Source: Candidatus Peribacteraceae bacterium (GTDB lineage: Bacteria > Patescibacteriota > Gracilibacteria > Peribacterales > Peribacteraceae). From it: a stretch of 58,759 nucleotides of DNA. A program made the position numbers and the translations under genes. Positions 31,318 to 50,799 of this stretch are shown here, piece by piece; positions within the stretch are counted from its first letter, which is position 1, and every line of letters starts with the position of its first letter. The stretch spans positions 1 through 58,759 of the forward strand of contig JAQVMB010000008.1 in NCBI GenBank assembly GCA_028703835.1, in the 5' to 3' direction. The notes under the pieces are model-generated. The model saw only the letters and a program-made list of their open reading frames with translations. It was not told the origin of the DNA and did no database searches.

Positions 31318-34300
31318 TTACAGTTGTGCATCGATGCCCTCCAAGTCCAAGTTACGTTCCGTCTTGCGTATTCCTGTTCGATCACTTTCCCAACTGCCAA
31401 CGTCTGCTGCCGCAGGCGCAAGAGACTGAAGCCATGTATTACCTGACAGATAGGGTGCTGGCACGTAGTCATCGCCGAATTGGTAAGGAAGTTTCCATTC
31501 GTAGTCTAATGCTCCAATGAATCCAGCGGCATCACCCTGCGAGGATCCCACTTCGGCTTTCACGGCGTTGCGGTAGAAGCGCGTGTAAGGGGAGGCGGAA
31601 CCGACGAGTCCACCAATTTTGCTGATTCCCTTAATGACGGATCCGCTCTCCACGACAGAATCAACAATAATGCCTTTTCCCATACTGCCCACCAGACCGC
31701 CGGCAGCGGAGGCACCGTCTCTGTCTGCGCCGCCCCACACGGTTCCTTTGAAGGAGGAATGGGAAATGACGCAGGGCAGGGTGGAGCGGTTGATGCAGTA
31801 CCAGCTGCCGATCAGTCCTCCCACGCCCCGTCCCGTGGCTGCTATATCGGCTTCTGCGCGGCTGCCGATAATGGGAAGAGCATTGCTTCCCCCCACCAAT
31901 CCTCCCACGAATGATCCATTTGCGGAGTGACCGAGAGTGATGGTGCCACGGAACAACGAACGGATGAGGCCTACTTTATTTTCTTGCATGCCGTCATCGA
32001 GCGGATTGATGAGATTGAGAGACTGTGCATTATTGCCGATGATTCCACCAACATATTTTTGGCCTCCCTGTACACCCGCCGAACCGAGTTGGGCAGTGGA
32101 GAGCGAATCTTCGATGCGGATAGGCCCCTCCGAAAAGCCCACCAGTCCCCCTGCCTCCTGCTGTTCGATACTGATGAGCGTGTTGCGGACCGAGCAATTG
32201 CTGATGTGCAACATTTTCCATTGCGTATGGCCGATCAGTCCTCCCACGGCTTTCATGCCCCATATTTGTCCGTCGATGACGTGGACGTTTTCCATGAGAA
32301 GGCCGGCTCCTGCTACTTCCGTATCTCCAATGACGCCTCCCACAGCGGTTTTACCGCGTATCGTGGGATTGCGAAGAATCAAGTTTCTGATGCTCCAGAG
32401 AGGAGAGAGACCCGGAAAAGAATATCCGTTGTGGCCGCGATGGAAGAGTCCCACTTTCGAATCGAGGCTGTCCACGACGGTCGGGTTGCGAATTTCGTAC
32501 CCGTTTCCATCCAAAGAACCACCGAGGTCGATGGGGGACATGTTGGAAATCGCGATGAAATCCAAGTTGGCGATGAGGCGGAATTGGTCGCGCCCGCAGT
32601 GAAGTTTCTCGTCTTTCGTCAAATTGTCAAAATCTGCACAATACGCGGGGAAGCCCGCGTCTGGAACATACATATTCGAGAGGCCTCCTCGGGATTGTCT
32701 TTGGATGAACTTGTAGGCGTTTTCCGCGGCGTTACGAAGTTGGTCGGGAGTACAGACAAGGAAGGGATCTCCTTCGGTTCCCTGTCCTCCTGCAAATGAG
32801 CCGGAGGAGGTCAGAGCCGGGTCGTCGCAGCGAGGATCATTTGCTTTCGGAGGAGGGAGCGTTTCTCCGGGGAGCGGGAACGGACCAGCGGGAGAGTAAT
32901 CCGCAATGCCTGGAATCAAGTGCGTCGTTCCTTGATGCTGTTTCTGGAGCTTGGGATTGGTCACGGTAATGTTCAAGACCTCATCGTAATGCGCATCGCC
33001 CCACACGGAGAAGAAGTGGGGGAAACCCTGTTGTCCCCAGCCGATGCCCTTGTCGGTTCTGGTGCTCTGTATGTTCACTTGGAGCTCCTTCAAATCATCT
33101 GAAGTCATCCCGCGGACGAAATATCCTTCATAAATGTTCGAGGGGGCAAGATAAGAATTCTTTTCCGGCCATATTTCTTTATAGATTCCCGGATCAAAGT
33201 CCAAGAGAGCAGGAGAAACTACGGGGGCTTGGATATGCAACGTCACTTGTTTTTCAATGGCTTGGTCTTCGCCGTTTCCCCGGTAGACCGAACGGTACGC
33301 GAGGGGGATGGTCGTGTCCGGGAAGAGGGCTTTCTCTTGCCACTCGTTGCCCGTGACGATGGGGATGGGGAGGAGAGAGCCTCGCTTGGTCCAAGCTTCT
33401 TTGTCATCTGCTTTCATTGCCTGCAAGACACTCGTCATCGTGCTGTTCTCGCTCGTCCATTCTGTCAGTGGCCCCATAGCGTTGGTGAAGTCATGGTGGC
33501 GGATTGGTGCCCAGTAATCTCCTCCTTGGATGGGGTCGAATATGTTCAGTTCCGGGAAGACATTGATTATGAAGGGTTTCAAGGGAGTGTAGTCGCGTGC
33601 AACAGAGAAAACACCGTTTGTGTCTGCTTCAATGGGTTCCGGAAAATTGGTTGCGGTTTGGTATCCTTGAGGCGGCGCCGTTTCGGCGCTGAAACGAATG
33701 CCAAGCAGCGGATACTTGGGAACCGTCACGGAAATTTGTGCTTTCAATCCCCGCCCGTAGAGAGATGTAATCGTTGCGCTGAAGCCCGGTTTTTCATTCA
33801 TCGGAAGCACGAAGGGGCTTGCCCATATACCGAGACCATTGTTTGCAATCATCTTTGGATTATCGATGGAGAGCGACGCTTCCGATGACAAATTGCAGAT
33901 GCGACCGTTCGATTCGTGACCGATGATGAAAAGTCCCGTGGACGAGTCCTTGGAGGCACCCTGCCAAATCATGAATTGAGGTGCCGGCCTGAGGTCGGGG
34001 AGTTTGTACGTGCATCGGTTGTTTCCCCAACTACTGCTCGGAATTCCCGTGATTTCGATGTACTCCAATTGGTCCGTTTGCCCGGTTTGCGTATCGAAGG
34101 GAACGATGCGGATGGGGGTGGTCTTGGTCTGGCCGTTGAGACGGGCGGAAACGGTGTATGTCTGAGCATTGCCGTTCGCTGTCAGGCTTTGCCTGCTCGG
34201 ATAGACGATGCCCTGCTCATCGATAGGCAGGCGGACAGGATCACTCGTTTGCCAAGTGACATCGGCAGGTGGAATGACAGTGAAAGAATTGCCTTCGTCA

Positions 34301-37300
34301 TATCGGCGGAGGACGAAGAGTGCGCGGCTCTGGAAGTTGAGGAGGGGTTTTTTTGTCATCAGCTCCACCCGGTCGAAGTTTTCCGTGACCGTAAAGGGCA
34401 GCACAGAGGTGAAGGTTTCATCCTTCCCTTGTCCACGGAAGGGAACGGTAGCCTGTACCGTGTAGGTGCCGGGAGTGAGAGAAGCCGTTTGAATCTTCGT
34501 CTCCTTGCTATCCTGCAATTGCAGCGTGAGATCGTTGCTCAGAGAAGTCCACGTTGCTCGCGCGGGGCGGTCCACACTCTCCCCTTGCACATTGATGAGG
34601 GATTGGAGGGTGAGCGTTTGTCCCCGGAAGACGGATTTTCCGAGCGGATTCAGGATGCAGGAGGGGCCGTTCTCTTCCCTTCCCAGACACGTGCCCGGCT
34701 CAGCTTTCTGAACTTCAATGACGGCGGAGACGGCATGGCCGTCGACCGTGGCGGTAACGGTGTATCGTTTGCCGCCGTAGGCATCCACGGTGCTGAAGAA
34801 GCCGTGGAGTGGGGGGATAAGGGAAAATTCAGAGGGGATATCCGTGGTCCAGGAGGCTTCAGGAGTGTAATCCACCACAAAATCCGTCGTTTCATTCCGG
34901 AAAGTTTCCACAAGTTGGAAAGAGAATCCCGCTTTTCCCCATGTGGCCTTGAAAGGTTTTTCCGCGGATCCATTTTCTTCCTCTGGATCTGTGCCGGGCT
35001 TGATCATGCTCAAGCCCTCGGACACGAATTCGTCGGGTGTAGCTGCCTTTCGGATCGCGAGATTGAACGAAGCATCAAATTCTTCGTAGTGTCCTATGAT
35101 GCGAAGTCTCTGCAAATTCTTCAAAGATTCTGCGTTGGCGGTGAGTGTCACCTGCCCATTGGGAGCGATGGGGAGAAGGAGATCATCCTGTGTAGTCCAA
35201 AATGCATCCATTGTCACGTTTTTCGTCGTTCCGTCCTTTGCGAGGAGTACGGCATGGAACATTGTTGTTTCTCCCGGGAACAGGCCCGCTTTATCTGGTT
35301 GGATAATCAAGCGATCTGAAGGGGACACGTCCTCATCGGGTTTCCATCCTTCGCTCGCTCGTGGATTGTCCGAGGGAATTCTCCGGCGTTGGTCATCCGT
35401 CATGCCGTCGAGGCTGTGCAGGTACTCCGCAAGTTGTTGGAAATCGAGTACGCGTCCTTTGCGCACTTTCTTCTCCAGAGCTGGTACTTTGCGCGCAGCA
35501 TTCTCCAGCACGTCCTCAATCAGCCAGGAATCATAGTACCAGTTATGCTGCTTGAAGTAGCCGATGACAAGAGCCGCTGCGGCCGACACTTGCGGTGCAG
35601 CGACGGAGGTTCCATCCGTGCCTGCCACGGCATTTCCGAGTCCATAGGAAGCGATGTTCGTGGCGGGGGCCAGGAGTTCCACCGCATCGCCATAGTTCGA
35701 GAAACGGTACAGGCGATCCGCCCCGGTTTCCAATCCTCCCACGGTCACTGCACCTTGGAAGTACCGCCCCCAGCAGGCCGGAGCGACGGTATTTCCGTAC
35801 ACGGCAGGTCGATCATCCGATGGCCAGATAAGGCGGCCCGGAATGTTCTGGCCGTTTTCGTCTACCTTGATTCCGTTCCCTGCGGAGAAGACAAAGAACA
35901 CGTTGTTTTCCAGTGCTTTGTAGATGGCGTGCCCTATGACCGGATTACAGAGATCCCTGTCGTACTCGGCCATGCTTATGTTAATGACGTCCGCGCCGGC
36001 GTTGACGGCGTGCTTGATGGCTTCGAAGAGATCGGATGTCCGAAGCTTTTGCATGTCTGTGGCATTGCGGGCGATTTTGATGGGGAGGAGGACCGCGTTC
36101 ACGCTCGCCAAGCCCTGTACCTTCGATCCTTGACCCATCGTGATCAAGCTTCCCACAGCAGTGCCGTGTCCAACGGCGTCCTGCGGATCGTCGGGAGCTT
36201 CGTCCGTCGGGCAATCTTCTTTTTTGGCTTTGTGGCAGAACTGAGCAGCTGTCCTGTTGGAGCCTTCCAGATTGGGAGATAGTTCGGGGGTTGCGGGATT
36301 GTTCAGGTCGAATCCCGTATCGATGGTCGCCACGACTACCTTGCCCTTACGGTCACTTGCGAGGGCATTCTGGAAGAATGATCGTGCCTGGGTGTAATGC
36401 GTTGCATCCAGGTAGGCGAAGCTGGGGGCGACCGAGGAAGAAGAAACGGCCTCGGAGCGCACATCTTCCTCGCCCGGCACCGTGATGCCGATAATGCAGG
36501 AATCTTCCTTCACATGTTTCCAGAGATCGTCGTAGGGCGTATTGAAGTTCAGGTGCAGGTCGTACACCGCGTCTTCCATCATCGTTGCCTTGGAAGGGGC
36601 AGGCGGAGGTGCAGGGAGGTAGCCGTCAAAGAACATATTCTGCCCGTCTTTCATGCGCGTCCTCCTGCAGCGATCGTCAACTGTGATGAGGAGGGGGAGG
36701 GAGCCTGGCACGATCTTCTTCGCAGTCGCTGTAGCGGGAGGGGGAGGGGGTGAGTCATCAGATTGACCTGTAGCATCTGCGATAAGAGAAGCTGTCCAAT
36801 CTTTTAAGCCATTCCAGAGACGTCCGAGAGCCAAGGGAGAGGTTGTTTGCAACTGTTCGTCGGGAATGGCGAGCGGCTGCTTGGCGAAGGGGGAAACTTG
36901 CGTGTCCGCTCCCGCTTCCATCGTGCAGAGGGAGGAGCAGCCGTCATCGTTCGTCGCGTTGCCATCGTCACACTCCTCTTCCGCTTGTACATATCCGTCG
37001 CCGCAGGCTGCCGCTCCGCACTTGTTGGTGCACGTATCCGTATTCACGGTGTTGCCATCGTCGCAATCTTCCCCTGCATCCACGACGCCGTTGCCGCAGG
37101 AAATGACGGAGAGGAGGTGGGCAGGCGAAGCGAGGACCGTGCCGCTGGCCGTGGGAGAGCTCGTCACAATCGATGCGCCGTACGTGCCATTGCGGACGAT
37201 GGAGGAGGTCCTCAGGCTCAAGAGAATGGTTTTTGTCCCTCCTCCTGGAAGATCACCCACTGCACAGGTGGCAGCGGGGGAGCCAACGATGGGGGAGCAG

Positions 37301-39924
37301 GATGTGTCCGAGAAATCAGGCAGGAAGGTATCGTTCGCATCCAGCGGCAGCGTGAGGGAGAGGGCTTTGGCGGTCCCTGCCCCGCGGTTTTCCACCGTCG
37401 TTTTCAGCTGAGCGGTCCCTCCGACAAATACTTGATCCGTTCCGGTGATCGACACGGCGAGGAGGCTCTCCTTCTCACAGCGAGAGGTGCAGCTGTCGCC
37501 ATTCGTCGCGTTGCCATCGTCACACTCCTCTCCCGTTCCCACGAACCCGTCTCCGCACATTGCCTTCTTGCACGTGTTGATGCAGGTGTCTGTATCGATC
37601 CTGTTCCCATCGTCACATTCTTCCCCCTGCTGCACGAGACCGTCTCCGCATACTGCTGTCTTGCAGCCATTCGAGCAGCCGTCCCCGTTCGTCGCATTCC
37701 CATCGTCACATTCTTCCCCTTTCTCCTTGATCCCATTGCCGCACAAGACGGTCTGACATTCGCTGGAACAGCCATCTCCATCCACGAGGTTCCCGTCATC
37801 GCAGCCTTCTCCGGCTTCCGTGAGGCCATTCCCGCAGACCGGGTTCCTGCACTCGTTGCTGCAAGCATCGCTCGCGACTCTATTCCCATCGTCACATTCT
37901 TCCCCGCTCTGCGTGAATCCGTCGCCGCACATGGCTTTCTTGCATGCATTCGAGCAGGTGTCGCCATTCTCGGCATTTCCGTCATCACATTCTTCGGTGC
38001 CTTGCATGATGCCGTCGCCGCACCTGGCTATCTTGCAGGCATTCGAGCAGGTGTCATCATTCGTGTTGTTCCCATCATCGCATTCCTCGTCCTGTTGCAC
38101 GATGGCATCCCCGCAGCGGGGGAGTCCGCAGGCATTCGTGCATCCGTCTGCATTCTCCATATTGCCGTCGTCGCAGGCTTCGCCGGGTTGAACGATGTTG
38201 TCGCCGCACATCGCCTTTTTGCATGCGTTCGTGCAGGTATCTTCGTTTTGGGTATTCCCATCGTCACATTCTTCCCCGCTCTGCGTGAATCCGTCGCCGC
38301 ACATGGCTTTCTTGCATGCATTCGAGCAGGTGTCGCCATTCTCGGCATTTCCGTCATCACATTCTTCGGTGCCTTGCATGATGCCGTCGCCGCATTTCGT
38401 GATCTTGCATGTAGTCGAGCAGCTGTCAGTTGCCACATCATTTCCATCATCACATTCTTCCCCGTTTTGCGTGAACCCGTCGCCGCAACGGGCTGACTTG
38501 CACATATTTGTGCATGCATCGTCGTTCTCGAAATTCTTGTCATCGCACTCTTCCATTCCTTCTTTCACGCCGTCGCCGCAGCGGATGGTCTTGCAGGATG
38601 CCGAGCAGGTCGTAGAGGAAAGGTTTCCTTCATCACATTCTTCTTCGTTCTGCATGAATCCGTCACCACATACTGCAATTTTGCAGGCATTGGTGCAGGT
38701 GTCTCTGTTCTCGACATTCCCGTCATCGCATTCCTCGGCTCCCTGGCGGAGGCCGTCGCCGCACCTGGGCAGCTTGCAGGAAGCGGTGCAGGCATCGCCG
38801 TTTCCGCCATCGCATTCTTCTCCGCTTTGTACAAAGCCGTCTCCGCAGGAGGCATTTCTGCAGGAAGCGGTACAGTCGTCCGTGTCATTCTTGTTTCCGT
38901 CATCGCACTCTTCTCCGTTCTGCAAGAATCCGTCGCCGCACGTGGCGTTCTTGCATGCGCTCGTGCACGCATCGCCATCCTCGGCATTTCCGTCGTCGCA
39001 CTCTTCTCCGCTCTGTACGAATCCATCGCCGCAGACCCCCTTCTTGCAAGAGGTGGTGCAGCCGTCCTCATTGACGGTGTTTTTGTCATCACATTCCTCC
39101 GCTCCCTGACGAATCCCGTCGCCGCAGGCAGGCAGTGAACACAGGTTCGTACAGCCGTCCTCGTCCGCCTGGTTTCCGTCGTCGCATTCCTCGGCACCCT
39201 GCTTCATCCCGTTTCCGCAAACTGCGTTCTTGCACGTATTGGAGCAGATATCGTCATTGACCGCATTCCCGTCATCACATTCCTCTTCGGCATCTATGGT
39301 TCCATTCCCGCAGGCAATGGCGGGTTGAGCGGCGCAGAAGGCGGGGAACAGAAGCAGATCCACGTTGTCCCGGAGGGAGGGATCCGCCGTCAGGCCCGTC
39401 GCGTATCCCCACAGCATAAGGGAAACAGGGCAGCTGTCGCTATCTTCCACAACCAACAGAAAAGGAATGGTGATTTCTTCCTTTTCAGCCATTTCGGGGA
39501 GTTGGCACGAGAGGGCGTTCTCATACCCTTGGGGTTGGGTACACGATGGAAGGAGTGGGAGGATGGACAATCCCTTCCCCTTGCTCCCGTAGAGAATGAG
39601 GGTGACTTTTTCCGCGGGGTTCGGTCCTCTGTTGCTTACCGTGACGGAGAGTATGGAACCAGTATTGACCGTCACGCTTCCCAGAGGCGCAAAATGAATG
39701 TTTAAGTCTGCCTCCTTTTTGCATTTCGTGGAGCAGCCGTCCCCGTTTGTTTGATTCCCGTCATCACACTGTTCCTGGGCTTCGACTGTTCGGTTCCCGC
39801 AAATGCCAGCCGAAGATGCTGCAAAAGAATCCGCCGTCGGCTGCGCGGCGAAAGCGAAAAGAAAGGAGACAGTGCTTATCAGAAGAAGCGGAGCAGCGGG
39901 AAGCTGCAGAGGAAAAAGACGCAT
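31318..39924 (-). CDS. Giant secreted protein: Cys-rich repeats, subtilase, beta-helix (2868 residues)
   Basis: A signal peptide (MRLFPLQLPAAPLLLISTV..., about residues 1-30) is followed by a region with 23 copies of a Cys-rich DUF4215-like repeat of about 31 residues (pattern CGDGxxQxGEECDDGNxxNxDxCxxxC). Copy 1 is at about 41, copies 2-21 at about 205-820 and copies 22-23 at about 940-1005. DUF11/CARDB-like domains sit at about 72-200 and 820-940. A Pro-rich linker leads to an S8 subtilisin domain with the complete triad: Asp in VVATIDTGFD (~1200), His in VGHGTAVGS (~1253) and Ser in GTDGTSVAAPQVS (~1439). Several Ig-like domains follow. The last ~370 residues contain GLUG-type repeats (VGGVIGD, VGGLIGH, AGGLVGF, VGGIIGN). 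There is no LPXTG motif or C-terminal membrane anchor. The repeats are Asp/Glu-rich and probably bind Ca2+. A role as a surface protease/adhesin is inferred. The nearby DsbA-like protein could oxidise its many cysteines. Confidence 0.88.
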   Translation of the reverse strand: MRLFPLQLPAAPLLLISTVSFLFAFAAQPTADSFAASSAGICGNRTVEAQEQCDDGNQTNGDGCSTKCKKEADLNIHFAPLGSVTVNTGSILSVTVSNRGPNPAEKVTLILYGSKGKGLSILPLLPSCTQPQGYENALSCQLPEMAEKEEITIPFLLVVEDSDSCPVSLMLWGYATGLTADPSLRDNVDLLLFPAFCAAQPAIACGNGTIDAEEECDDGNAVNDDICSNTCKNAVCGNGMKQGAEECDDGNQADEDGCTNLCSLPACGDGIRQGAEECDDKNTVNEDGCTTSCKKGVCGDGFVQSGEECDDGNAEDGDACTSACKNATCGDGFLQNGEECDDGNKNDTDDCTASCRNASCGDGFVQSGEECDGGNGDACTASCKLPRCGDGLRQGAEECDDGNVENRDTCTNACKIAVCGDGFMQNEEECDEGNLSSTTCSASCKTIRCGDGVKEGMEECDDKNFENDDACTNMCKSARCGDGFTQNGEECDDGNDVATDSCSTTCKITKCGDGIMQGTEECDDGNAENGDTCSNACKKAMCGDGFTQSGEECDDGNTQNEDTCTNACKKAMCGDNIVQPGEACDDGNMENADGCTNACGLPRCGDAIVQQDEECDDGNNTNDDTCSNACKIARCGDGIMQGTEECDDGNAENGDTCSNACKKAMCGDGFTQSGEECDDGNRVASDACSNECRNPVCGNGLTEAGEGCDDGNLVDGDGCSSECQTVLCGNGIKEKGEECDDGNATNGDGCSNGCKTAVCGDGLVQQGEECDDGNRIDTDTCINTCKKAMCGDGFVGTGEECDDGNATNGDSCTSRCEKESLLAVSITGTDQVFVGGTAQLKTTVENRGAGTAKALSLTLPLDANDTFLPDFSDTSCSPIVGSPAATCAVGDLPGGGTKTILLSLRTSSIVRNGTYGASIVTSSPTASGTVLASPAHLLSVISCGNGVVDAGEDCDDGNTVNTDTCTNKCGAAACGDGYVQAEEECDDGNATNDDGCSSLCTMEAGADTQVSPFAKQPLAIPDEQLQTTSPLALGRLWNGLKDWTASLIADATGQSDDSPPPPPATATAKKIVPGSLPLLITVDDRCRRTRMKDGQNMFFDGYLPAPPPAPSKATMMEDAVYDLHLNFNTPYDDLWKHVKEDSCIIGITVPGEEDVRSEAVSSSSVAPSFAYLDATHYTQARSFFQNALASDRKGKVVVATIDTGFDLNNPATPELSPNLEGSNRTAAQFCHKAKKEDCPTDEAPDDPQDAVGHGTAVGSLITMGQGSKVQGLASVNAVLLPIKIARNATDMQKLRTSDLFEAIKHAVNAGADVINISMAEYDRDLCNPVIGHAIYKALENNVFFVFSAGNGIKVDENGQNIPGRLIWPSDDRPAVYGNTVAPACWGRYFQGAVTVGGLETGADRLYRFSNYGDAVELLAPATNIASYGLGNAVAGTDGTSVAAPQVSAAAALVIGYFKQHNWYYDSWLIEDVLENAARKVPALEKKVRKGRVLDFQQLAEYLHSLDGMTDDQRRRIPSDNPRASEGWKPDEDVSPSDRLIIQPDKAGLFPGETTMFHAVLLAKDGTTKNVTMDAFWTTQDDLLLPIAPNGQVTLTANAESLKNLQRLRIIGHYEEFDASFNLAIRKAATPDEFVSEGLSMIKPGTDPEEENGSAEKPFKATWGKAGFSFQLVETFRNETTDFVVDYTPEASWTTDIPSEFSLIPPLHGFFSTVDAYGGKRYTVTATVDGHAVSAVIEVQKAEPGTCLGREENGPSCILNPLGKSVFRGQTLTLQSLINVQGESVDRPARATWTSLSNDLTLQLQDSKETKIQTASLTPGTYTVQATVPFRGQGKDETFTSVLPFTVTENFDRVELMTKKPLLNFQSRALFVLRRYDEGNSFTVIPPADVTWQTSDPVRLPIDEQGIVYPSRQSLTANGNAQTYTVSARLNGQTKTTPIRIVPFDTQTGQTDQLEYIEITGIPSSSWGNNRCTYKLPDLRPAPQFMIWQGASKDSSTGLFIIGHESNGRICNLSSEASLSIDNPKMIANNGLGIWASPFVLPMNEKPGFSATITSLYGRGLKAQISVTVPKYPLLGIRFSAETAPPQGYQTATNFPEPIEADTNGVFSVARDYTPLKPFIINVFPELNIFDPIQGGDYWAPIRHHDFTNAMGPLTEWTSENSTMTSVLQAMKADDKEAWTKRGSLLPIPIVTGNEWQEKALFPDTTIPLAYRSVYRGNGEDQAIEKQVTLHIQAPVVSPALLDFDPGIYKEIWPEKNSYLAPSNIYEGYFVRGMTSDDLKELQVNIQSTRTDKGIGWGQQGFPHFFSVWGDAHYDEVLNITVTNPKLQKQHQGTTHLIPGIADYSPAGPFPLPGETLPPPKANDPRCDDPALTSSGSFAGGQGTEGDPFLVCTPDQLRNAAENAYKFIQRQSRGGLSNMYVPDAGFPAYCADFDNLTKDEKLHCGRDQFRLIANLDFIAISNMSPIDLGGSLDGNGYEIRNPTVVDSLDSKVGLFHRGHNGYSFPGLSPLWSIRNLILRNPTIRGKTAVGGVIGDTEVAGAGLLMENVHVIDGQIWGMKAVGGLIGHTQWKMLHISNCSVRNTLISIEQQEAGGLVGFSEGPIRIEDSLSTAQLGSAGVQGGQKYVGGIIGNNAQSLNLINPLDDGMQENKVGLIRSLFRGTITLGHSANGSFVGGLVGGSNALPIIGSRAEADIAATGRGVGGLIGSWYCINRSTLPCVISHSSFKGTVWGGADRDGASAAGGLVGSMGKGIIVDSVVESGSVIKGISKIGGLVGSASPYTRFYRNAVKAEVGSSQGDAAGFIGALDYEWKLPYQFGDDYVPAPYLSGNTWLQSLAPAAADVGSWESDRTGIRKTERNLDLEGIDAQL
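37881..38022 (-). repeat. Recent internal duplication, copy A
   Basis: About 142 bp are, by eye, identical to 38253-38394, offset by 372 bp (four 31-codon repeats). This indicates recent unequal recombination among the Cys-rich repeats. Confidence 0.8.
38253..38394 (-). repeat. Recent internal duplication, copy B
   Basis: This is the partner of 37881-38022. Repeat units further away are clearly diverged, so this exact identity is recent or maintained by gene conversion. Confidence 0.8.
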
Positions 39925-47250: not shown

Positions 47251-47640
47251 TCAGGCAATGAGTCTTCCCCTCGTCGGCGGCTCGTTTCGCTTGTCCGGGT
47301 GCCGCGTGATGGTCACGGACACCTCCTTGGCGTCCTTGAACGGGAACGTCTTCACGGTCACCGTCACGGAGGTGACGGCGGGGGCATGGAGGGCGAGGAC
47401 GGCGACGTCTTCCGCGAGCCGCTCGAAGGTATGACGTTCCTCTTTCGCGAGGGTCCGGATCTCCTCCGCCAGCATGCCGCAGTCCACGCCGTGGGCGGGA
47501 TTGTCCGCTGCGGCAGCGGGTTTCGTATCCAGGAACAGCCGGACGGAGACGAGGACCCGCTGCTCCTTCACGCGTCCCCCGGCGGGAGCGCCGAGGCGGA
47601 CGGAGAGCTCCAGATCGGTGATGTCGAGGACATCGTTCAT
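47251..47640 (-). CDS. folB: Dihydroneopterin aldolase-like protein
   Basis: The 129-residue protein matches the T-fold FolB pattern: MNDVLDITDLELSVRLG (the family's I.GL...IGV.. motif), KEQRVLVSVRLFLDT, and a later TFERLAEDVAVLAL...VTVKTFPFKDAKEVSVTITR. FolB makes the pterin precursor of folate. Its presence with ThyA and FolA points to at least part of a folate pathway. It starts inside the secD stop (ATGA overlap). Confidence 0.83.
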   Translation of the reverse strand: MNDVLDITDLELSVRLGAPAGGRVKEQRVLVSVRLFLDTKPAAAADNPAHGVDCGMLAEEIRTLAKEERHTFERLAEDVAVLALHAPAVTSVTVTVKTFPFKDAKEVSVTITRHPDKRNEPPTRGRLIA

Positions 47641-50093
47641 GCAAGCACATCGGGAGCCGCGGAGGTCGGCCGGTCCGGCTTCTGCAAGCGCACGAAGAGG
47701 GAGCTGCGGTCGGCCAGCGGCGTGGCGGCGAGCTTGCGCAGCAGCCAGCGGGTGACGACGACGGCGGTGAGCATGGAGAGGGGCACGCCCGTGGCGAGCG
47801 TGATCGCGAAGCCGCGGATGATCGACGTGCCGATGACGAAGAGGATGCCGCAGGTGATGATGGTGGAGACGTTGCTGTCGCGGATGGCAGGCCAAGCGTG
47901 CCGGAAACTCGTTTCCACGGCGGTCTTCACCATTTTCCCCTTGCGCAGTTCTTCCTTGATGCGTTCGAACACGAGGACGTTCGCGTCCACGGCCATGCCG
48001 ATCGAGAGGATGATGCCCGCCATGCCCGCCAGCGTGAGGACGATGTAATTGCCGGTCACGAGCAGGAGCGGCAATTTGAGGATGGCGGAGAGGAGGATGG
48101 CGTACAGGGACAGCGCGACGGCGGACACCACGCCCAGGGCGCGGTACATGAAGACCATGTAGAGCATGAGGACGAGAATGCCCACTAGGGCGGCTTGCAG
48201 CGATGTCTGCAGCGCGGCGGCTCCCAGCGTGGCTTCCACGGTGTACTGTCCCACAAGGTGGATGGGGGCGGGGATGGCGCCCGTATTCAGGTCCTGCGCG
48301 AGCGTCTTGGCTTCGTTGAAGTCCTGGCTGCCGGTGATCACGGCGATCCCGCCGCTGATTTCCTGCTGCACTTCGGGGGCGGAAACGAGTTGGCCGCCCA
48401 CGAAGATGGCGATCCGCTTCCCCACGTTCGCCTTCGTCAGTTCCTGGAAGAGGCGTCCGCCTTCGTCATCGAAGGAGATCTGCACCACGGGGATGTTCGT
48501 CACGGGGTCGACCGTGACGGCTGCGGACCGGAAATGCTTGCCGTCCAGCGCCGTGTCCTTCCAACCCGTCGGTTCGAGCGAGAAGAAGAGCGTGCGCAGC
48601 GGCTGCGCTTGCTGCTGCGTGGTCACCTCGCCGTTGCGCAGGCGGTTCAGGAGGGTGTCCGCACGCGCCCCGGCGTCGGCTCCGGTGAGGACGAGATCGT
48701 CGAAGCTCGCCTTGTCCGGCAAGGTTTTGACGGGTGCGTTCAGGCGGATGAGATGGTAGCCGTACTGCGTTTCCACGGGGCCGGAGACGGCCCCCTGCTT
48801 CGCCTTGAAAGCGGCGTCCTCGAAGGACGGCGGCCAGGAGCCGCGCGTGACGGCGCCGATGCGGCCGCCCTGCGCCTTCGTCGAGGAGCCGTCCGATTCC
48901 GTGCGGGCGACGTCTTCAAACGATGCCCCGCCGTCGATACGGGCCTTCAGTTCCTCCGCGCGCCGCTGCGCTTCTTCCTTCGTGCGCGTCACGGTCGCCG
49001 CTGCGTCCGTCGCGCCTCCGAAAGCGACGAGGATGTGGCTGACATCCGCTTCTTCCTGTCCCTTTTCAAGGAAGCGCAGGAAGAGAACGCGGGCGGTGCC
49101 GTCCGTCAGTTCGACGGTCTTCAGTTCCCCCGGTTCCATGCTCCGCAGGGCGCCCGCCACGCGCTGGTTCGCTTTGTCGTCGAGCAGGGTGTCTTCACGG
49201 TACGCATACGACGCGCCCGTTTCGGTTTCGGCCAGGATGGAGAACGCGGTCGGGGCGTCGTTCACCAGGCGGCCCGTCTGCGTGAGGGGGCCGAGGATTT
49301 CGGCGACGAAGATGCCCGGCACGTCCTTCTCCTGCGTCTGCCCGTCCGCCCCTTCCGCCGTCATATGCACGGAACCGTTCAGCTTCGCGACGGTTCCCGG
49401 CTTCCCGCCCCACAGGCTCTGCAGCCCCTCGGGCAGCGTGTCGCGGAAGAAGAGATGGCTTTCCCGGTAGTCCATGCCGAGCTGGGAACCCAGGTCCTGC
49501 CCTTCTTTTTGCAGCGTCGATTGCCGGGATGACACGCGGCGATACGCCGCATCGGCTTTCGCCGTCACAGTCGCCTTGAATTCTTCGGTCGGCTCGGTGA
49601 ACTCTTCCTTGAATTCGAGTTGGATCGTCTTGCCGACGACATTGATGCATTCCTGGGTGTCCACGACGCCCGGACATTCGACGAGCAGGTGCTTTTCGTT
49701 GCCGATGTACGAGGGCGTGATGGTCGCCTCGCTCACTCCGAGCGCGTTGATGCGGCGTTCGATGACGATGCGGATGGCTTCCACGAGGTTCGTCTGCTGT
49801 TCCTCGATGCTCGCCAACTGCGCGCGCAGTTTCTCGGCCTCGTCGGGAGAACCGGCGCCCTGCATGTCCGCGAGGCTCTTTTCCAGGCGCGCGCGCTGCG
49901 CGTTGATCTCCTCTTCGGAGATGCGGAAGTCCAACTGCGTCCCTCCGACGAGATCCAGGCCCAAGTGGAGGGAGGGGGAGCGCAGGAAGCCCGGCGCCCA
50001 TTCTTTCCACTGCTGCGGCAGTGCGGTGATGAGGAGCAGGAGACCGATGAGAGCGGTCACGGACGGCCAGAGATAGGGGCGATTTTGCGACAT
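47637..50093 (-). CDS. secD: SecD with an inserted parvulin (PpiC) domain
   Basis: SecD pulls translocating chains across the membrane using the proton gradient. The 818-residue protein has TM1 (about 10-27), LGLDLVGGTQLDFRI, a helical insert (about 60-110) and RRINALGVSEATITP. The P1 head is at about 500-610 (VVQISFDDEGGRLFQELT; GGIAVITGSQDFNEAKTLAQDLNTGAIPAP) and TM2-6 at about 630-790, with AVDANVLVFERIKEELRKGK. Residues about 350-455 are a parvulin-type prolyl isomerase (VSHILVAFGG; GASFEDVARTESDGS; GGRIGAVTRGSWPPSFEDAAF; SGPVETQYGYHLIRL). Ordinary SecD lacks this and is ~500-600 residues. No secF lies next to it. A lipoprotein similar to its P1 head is encoded just upstream. Confidence 0.93.
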   Translation of the reverse strand: MSQNRPYLWPSVTALIGLLLLITALPQQWKEWAPGFLRSPSLHLGLDLVGGTQLDFRISEEEINAQRARLEKSLADMQGAGSPDEAEKLRAQLASIEEQQTNLVEAIRIVIERRINALGVSEATITPSYIGNEKHLLVECPGVVDTQECINVVGKTIQLEFKEEFTEPTEEFKATVTAKADAAYRRVSSRQSTLQKEGQDLGSQLGMDYRESHLFFRDTLPEGLQSLWGGKPGTVAKLNGSVHMTAEGADGQTQEKDVPGIFVAEILGPLTQTGRLVNDAPTAFSILAETETGASYAYREDTLLDDKANQRVAGALRSMEPGELKTVELTDGTARVLFLRFLEKGQEEADVSHILVAFGGATDAAATVTRTKEEAQRRAEELKARIDGGASFEDVARTESDGSSTKAQGGRIGAVTRGSWPPSFEDAAFKAKQGAVSGPVETQYGYHLIRLNAPVKTLPDKASFDDLVLTGADAGARADTLLNRLRNGEVTTQQQAQPLRTLFFSLEPTGWKDTALDGKHFRSAAVTVDPVTNIPVVQISFDDEGGRLFQELTKANVGKRIAIFVGGQLVSAPEVQQEISGGIAVITGSQDFNEAKTLAQDLNTGAIPAPIHLVGQYTVEATLGAAALQTSLQAALVGILVLMLYMVFMYRALGVVSAVALSLYAILLSAILKLPLLLVTGNYIVLTLAGMAGIILSIGMAVDANVLVFERIKEELRKGKMVKTAVETSFRHAWPAIRDSNVSTIITCGILFVIGTSIIRGFAITLATGVPLSMLTAVVVTRWLLRKLAATPLADRSSLFVRLQKPDRPTSAAPDVLA

Positions 50094-50124: not shown

Positions 50125-50799
50125 TCAGGGTTGCTCCTCCACGGGCAGGGGGCGGAACGTCACGTGGGTGCCGACGACGACGTCATCGGCGAAGATGGAG
50201 GCGATGGTGGGGCTGGGGATGCCGTCGATCTGGATCACGCTGTTCTCCGCGTCATCTTCGGTCACGAGCTTGCGGGACATCAGGCGGTCGCGCACGAAGA
50301 CCCCGATTTGTTTGTCCATGTTTTCCCGGAAGACCTGTTTGAGTTTCGGCAGTCCTTCCTCCGTCAGGGAGATGACGACGAAGCCCGTTTCGTCCTGCAT
50401 GCCGGCATCCGCCCAGGCGATGTCTTTCTCCGTGATGCCCGTCTCCGCGAACCCGCCGAACTGGTCGTTCCACAGCGTCGCCTGCTCACGGGGCGCCTGC
50501 ATCATGAGGCGGAAGCTGAACGGCGACGTCAGTTCTCGCACCAATGTCTCCCGCAGGGCCGGATCCCGCACGGTCAGGCGCAACACTGCTCCGGAACCTT
50601 CCTGGAGCGCGCGGGCTCCCCTTGCCGGGCCTCCCAGGCTTTCGAGGCGCCGCGTCGCGACGCGCTCGGCGGCTTCCAGGAGCTCGGGCGCCCGCGTATT
50701 GCCCGTTTCGGAGAAGGACAGCGTGAGATCGGTTTCCTGTCCGGCGGCACAGCCCGCGAGGAGCAGGACAAAGACGAGGGAGGGGGCGAAACGTTTCAT
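50125..50799 (-). CDS. Lipoprotein resembling the SecD P1 periplasmic domain
   Basis: The 224-residue protein has a lipoprotein signal (MKRFAPSLVFVLLLAGC, Cys17). Its mature part follows the order of the SecD P1 region: AAERVATRRLESLGGPARG (base helix), SPFSFRLMMQ, then a head-like unit (GFVVISLTEEGLPKLKQVFRENMDKQIGVFVRDRLMSRKL...SVIQIDG). Compare SecD's VVQISFDDEGGRLFQELTKANVGKRIAIFVGGQLVSAPEV. It has no membrane-channel part. It lies 31 bp upstream of secD on the same strand. TACACT is 6 nt before the ATG. A role as an accessory factor of SecD is inferred. Confidence 0.75.
   Translation of the reverse strand: MKRFAPSLVFVLLLAGCAAGQETDLTLSFSETGNTRAPELLEAAERVATRRLESLGGPARGARALQEGSGAVLRLTVRDPALRETLVRELTSPFSFRLMMQAPREQATLWNDQFGGFAETGITEKDIAWADAGMQDETGFVVISLTEEGLPKLKQVFRENMDKQIGVFVRDRLMSRKLVTEDDAENSVIQIDGIPSPTIASIFADDVVVGTHVTFRPLPVEEQP

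Follow-up and report, generated by a model that had tools for sequence, protein, structure and literature searches.

The window analysed here, a 58,759-nucleotide stretch of contig JAQVMB010000008.1 from a Candidatus Peribacteraceae bacterium, encodes on its minus strand (47637..50093) an 818-aa SecD in which residues ~346-456 form a parvulin-fold domain (PpiC-type rotamase) between the P1 base and the P1 head. SecDF is a membrane motor that helps to pull proteins out of the cell. We consider it probable that this SecD carries a tethered parvulin foldase, which acts on the exported chain and replaces a separate parvulin of the PrsA, SurA or PpiD type; substrate contact, isomerase activity and the replacement itself are the parts of this reading that we infer. 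SecD and the parvulins are each well known, and the fusion of both appears to be undescribed in open-licence full texts, among which no published account of it was found.

A parvulin domain inside a genuine SecD

The secD open reading frame contains no internal stop, and its product scores 333.1 bits against the NCBIfam SecD model TIGR01129 (cut-off 244.4). Pfam identifies SecD_1st at residues 107-163, SecDF_P1_head at 512-609 and SecD_SecF_C at 616-788, in the order expected of SecD. TM1 is predicted as a helix at residues 8-23 (50025..50072; all coordinates in this section are on the minus strand), the SecDF alignment beginning at residue 3-6, and the N-terminal part of the P1 base, delimited by SecD_1st and a family HMM, spans residues 100-164 (49602..49796). 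The P1 head follows at residues 510-612 (48258..48566; PF22599, E 2.3e-26) and the TM2-6 region at residues 613-800 (47694..48257; PF02355, E 1.1e-9). The latter contains Asp703 of the proton path, located in TM4 within the motif VDAN; all 40 family members have this Asp, which is likewise invariant in alignment A3. The genome to which the window belongs is 1.34 Mb in size and 98.5% complete; this is its sole SecD, and the SecF partner is encoded on a different contig, C12 (E 2.2e-48). The protein is a genuine SecD, the normal one of the cell, and part of the proton-driven SecDF motor.

Three segments separate the P1 base from the P1 head: a first insert (residues 171-345, 49059..49583), the parvulin (residues 346-456, 48726..49058), and a linker to the P1 head (residues 457-509, 48567..48725). 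The parvulin, delimited by Pfam, fold match and conservation, matches Rotamase_3 (PF13616) at residues 344-451 with 92.4 bits (cut-off 22.5, E 3.7e-26) and Rotamase (PF00639) at residues 353-452 with 85.6 bits (cut-off 21.7, E 4.9e-24). In an AlphaFold2 model built on 31 sequences, block-mean pLDDT for residues 350-450 was ~91-98, and confidence was likewise high for the P1 head and for the bulk of the membrane part. Values were below 50 over residues 217-344 of the first insert and 461-508 of the linker, and with such linkers the model leaves the position of the parvulin relative to P1 and the channel exit unfixed. Residues 345-453 of the model superimpose on Pin1 (4u86; Z 19.3, 1.4 Å over 108 residues) and on PrsA (6vj4; Z 17.5, 43% identity over 96 residues), and the remainder matches Thermus thermophilus SecDF (5yhf; Z 23.6), SecDF structures overall giving Z scores of 18-24.

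Both the profile search, in which Rotamase_3, Rotamase and the SecD domains were all found above cut-off, and the structure prediction bear out the preliminary description, which had read a parvulin at residues ~350-455 of the 818-aa protein. Its placement of the domain also holds in that the parvulin lies before the P1 head and, by homology to SecD, would be extracytoplasmic, but the insert as a whole is larger, running to ~340 aa (~171-509), and the parvulin is only its second half.

Active site and first insert

All 40 family members retain the two active-site histidines of the domain, His353 and His447 (His59 and His157 of Pin1), as do 26 of 27 sequences from across the lineages. Phe424 of the substrate pocket is kept in 39 of 40 family members and Gly410 in all 40, and mean column identity within the family is 0.65 in the parvulin versus 0.52-0.56 in the flanking insert segments. 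Characterised active parvulins typically, if not in every member of the family, carry Cys or Asp at the position of Pin1 Cys113. The window protein has neither at this site, which is Asp in PrsA and Gly402 here; Gly is found in 36 and Asp in 4 of the 40 family members, and in the comparison across lineages the residue is Gly, Asp or Glu. The position of Pin1 Met130 is occupied by Trp in the window and by Met in most of the other sequences. Because of Gly402 and this Trp, catalysis may be weak or absent. In Bacillus subtilis PrsA, however, an Asp-to-Ala mutation at the equivalent Asp costs only half of the activity (PMC2678132), so Gly402 is not decisive against catalysis. It lowers confidence in full activity and leaves the assignment of fold and family untouched, and prolyl isomerase activity of the SecD parvulin is plausible from its residues. 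The earlier idea that fold assistance is fused to the pulling motor is thus upheld as far as a parvulin fold in a genuine SecD is concerned, with catalysis a property that we infer in view of two retained histidines on the one hand and Gly402 on the other.

Compared directly with the parvulin profile, the first insert of the window (residues 171-345) gave no significant match (0.3-2.5% probability). It is linked only transitively, through profiles of related inserts, to degenerate parvulins (f1-f18, 90-92%; f1-f9a, 94-95%; f18-parvulin, 95%), and residues ~171-272 are probably a degenerate parvulin, as judged from this chain of profile matches. Profile comparisons of residues 273-345 gave no convincing relative. 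SecDs of the ABY1 type often contain two parvulins in tandem; their first insert scores 99.4% against the parvulin profile, and the SHIL histidine is absent from this first copy in the alignment. For the modelled ectodomain of a Peregrinibacteria SecD (L140), the best Foldseek match was SurA (1m5y, E 5e-8), in an alignment from residue 108 to 332 that takes in both inserts (185 residues, rmsd 11 Å). The large rmsd indicates that the two domains are arranged otherwise than in the SurA crystal. In some relatives an inactive-looking parvulin comes before an active-looking one, as in SurA. The lengths of SecD inserts cluster near 0-60, 130, 240 and 340 aa, a spacing suggestive of none, one, two or more units the size of a parvulin. 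Families of the class that use TGA as a sense codon (L100, L102, L106, L107 and L118) have a SecD insert of 130-175 aa in the same place, which was recognised by none of the parvulin profiles.

The residues at the active site bear on whether the parvulin is an enzyme or a holdase module without real isomerase activity, which would widen the binding surface of P1 and clamp against backsliding. PpiD of E. coli may act in this way, as may the first SurA parvulin, and the importance of the PpiD parvulin has been questioned (PMC9643414). Two observations are in keeping with such a role: 36 of 40 family members have Gly where the nucleophile would be, and the extra parvulin of the ABY1-type relatives looks inactive. 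Against it, both histidines and the pocket Phe are invariant or nearly so in the SecD parvulin, unlike in the degenerate insert, and the PrsA mutant keeps half of its activity. We regard a pure holdase as possible, though clearly the less probable reading, and retain the tethered foldase as the preferred one.

Distribution and gene neighbourhood

A whole-genome search found the same SecD, as collinear orthologues with 49-67% identity, in 71 of the 74 genomes of the family. The parvulin lies in the SecD frame in 70 of these 71 genes, 63 of which are full length on one contig and 7 partial with the parvulin included; the single match that misses it is a fragment at a contig end. Rotamase_3 has one match in the whole genome of the window, the one within SecD. 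An assembly artefact or a recent chance fusion is refuted by these in-frame parvulins: the same single-frame architecture occurs in ~70 family genomes assembled independently of each other, and again in many further families and in two lineages of the SecD tree, so that this explanation can for practical purposes be dismissed.

Of 140 genomes sampled from the class, 84 had a parvulin within the SecD frame, and 76 of the 84 were without any other parvulin match. Genomes outside the class, in a sample of the phylum, mostly had a stand-alone parvulin gene (~230-420 aa) or no parvulin, and in most other Patescibacteria SecD is ~440 aa long and the parvulin is absent. Among SecDs from more than 130 loci, base-to-head parvulin inserts were found in numerous families of the class, some of them grouped with Peregrinibacteria and Gracilibacteria, and also in ABY1-type loci named Uhrbacteria, Magasanikbacteria, Kerfeldbacteria, Buchananbacteria and Falkowbacteria (the names are those of the loci). 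We take the class to be that of the Peregrinibacteria and Gracilibacteria, and the family of the window to be a probably Peribacteria-like one within it. Pfam gave a Rotamase match in 37 of 64 diverse SecDs. The insert, for which the preliminary description had suggested a survey of CPR SecD proteins, is found both across the class and in ABY1-type Patescibacteria.

Mapped on the SecD core tree, the presence of the fusion required 10 changes versus a mean of 40 for shuffled labels, and the fusion is strongly clustered, in two lineages. The tree of the SecD parvulin domain itself (111 columns) is weakly resolved as to a single origin. A genome scan gave no clear case of a SecD-parvulin fusion outside Patescibacteria among the matches listed. 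One fusion record bearing the name Lysobacteraceae (L145, JAACEG010000012.1) was rejected as such a case: its genome has a size of 0.7 Mb and its SecD-parvulin falls among ABY1-type sequences, for which reasons the name is treated as wrong and the record is probably a mislabelled Patescibacteria genome. Being conserved across the class and in a second lineage, the fusion is not peculiar to the genome of the window and looks like a general property of the export machinery.

The gene adjacent to secD on its upstream side (50125..50799, minus strand) encodes a 224-aa lipoprotein (lipobox LLAGC) with a domain resembling the SecD P1 head, for which the match to PF22599 is below the cut-off (E 0.0014 in Pfam, 5e-4 in the whole-genome search). 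Of 40 family loci, 36 have such a gene immediately 5' of secD, mostly with a gap of <60 bp. The two genes likely form one operon, and the lipoprotein is a possible partner of SecD; it may represent a duplicated SecD P1 domain that lacks the membrane part. The downstream neighbour of secD is folB. Other families of the class encode SecD ectodomains as secreted proteins or lipoproteins, composed of a P1-like part, one or more parvulins and a P1 head, with the membrane part absent (L279, 772-2406; L280, 832-2268; L281, 962-2434; L282, 806-2329). The gene of this kind in L279 is upstream of SecD on the same contig, and in L283 a parvulin is present and the P1 head match is not significant.

The lipoprotein gene directly upstream of secD in 36 of 40 loci and the membrane-less P1-parvulin-P1-head proteins of related families would fit an insert that serves as a docking platform for envelope proteins, such as the P1-like lipoprotein or SecYEG, and makes no contact with the substrate. 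Conservation within the insert, however, peaks in the parvulin, the active site of which is invariant; pure docking needs neither, and we consider this reading very unlikely.

Further isomerases and secreted proteins were seen in the same genome. A cyclophilin (L247, on contig C21 of G000) has a lipoprotein signal and, as far as this signal goes, is apparently another extracytoplasmic prolyl isomerase, so that SecD would not be the sole one of the genome. The FKBP gene adjoining secF, considered as an export isomerase, is a trigger factor by sequence. Within the window, positions 31318-39924 (minus strand) encode a secreted-looking protein of 2868 aa with 115 Cys, 21 DUF4215 stretches and a subtilase domain. 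The purpose proposed in the preliminary description, a use of the fusion in exporting giant Cys-rich proteins, is not supported by the presence of this protein, since much of the class and a second lineage share the fusion.

Proposed role and relation to known systems

It is not yet settled how the Sec motor hands exported proteins over to the factors that fold them, and the contacts of E. coli SecD with PpiD and SurA are short-lived and in part known from models. The parvulin protein PpiD, which is anchored in the membrane, touches the periplasmic domain of SecD and works together with SecDF (PMC9643414). SurA binds to the holo-translocon, AlphaFold models setting its two parvulin domains on the P1 head of SecDF (PMC9987972). 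Given these contacts, the fusion looks like a covalent hand-off, and since PpiD or SurA and SecD make a functional pair, their union in a single chain is what gene-fusion logic would lead one to expect.

In the tethered-foldase reading that we prefer, an exported chain would leave SecYEG and be bound by P1, and the parvulin, on its flexible linkers, would bind proline-containing stretches of the same chain, hold them unfolded or keep them advancing, and probably accelerate their cis-trans isomerisation. The SecD parvulin would then do covalently what SurA and PpiD of E. coli do by docking onto SecD, and in small genomes it would substitute for a separate parvulin of the PrsA, SurA or PpiD type. 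In a bolder version, which we think unlikely, the parvulin would itself be a mobile element of the motor, carried along as P1 swings under proton drive; each pulling stroke would capture and isomerise the chain, and the P1-like lipoprotein would serve as a second mobile arm. Export and folding would in that case be one coupled cycle, not two separate steps.

The natural position of the fusion is consistent with the SecD-foldase contact in E. coli, and it has been kept across much of the class and part of a second lineage, a large group of tiny and for the most part uncultured bacteria. The fusion may give a direct view of the link between export and folding, and it turns the hand-off from SecD to foldase into one polypeptide that is open to expression, imaging and mutation. 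It also carries a warning for annotation, as calls of 'PrsA present' in such genomes may refer to SecD. The window protein is no stand-alone foldase: its parvulin lies inside SecD, and it scores 64.8 bits against the best NCBIfam PrsA model (cut-off 343) and 39.5 against SurA (cut-off 394).

With the SecD of known SecDF systems (T. thermophilus 3aqp and 5yhf; E. coli), the window protein has in common TM1, the P1 base, the P1 head, TM2-6 and the Asp of TM4. It differs from a typical SecD in the parvulin-bearing insert of ~340 aa, and at 818 aa it contrasts with the ~440 aa found in most other Patescibacteria. Parvulins are otherwise separate proteins, as the preliminary description had stated of PrsA and PpiD and as SurA is too. 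PrsA, the foldase of Gram-positive bacteria, likewise has an extracytoplasmic parvulin, the 43% identical domain of 6vj4, but is a separate lipoprotein with chaperone lobes of its own, which the SecD parvulin is not. SurA shares with related SecDs the tandem of an inactive and an active-looking parvulin; it is soluble and docks on SecDF, whereas the parvulins of SecD are attached covalently, and the first insert of the window is too diverged for a direct comparison. PpiD resembles the fused SecD in being a membrane-anchored parvulin at the translocon that touches SecD (PMC9643414), and differs from it in being a separate protein with a single TM segment and YfgM as its partner.
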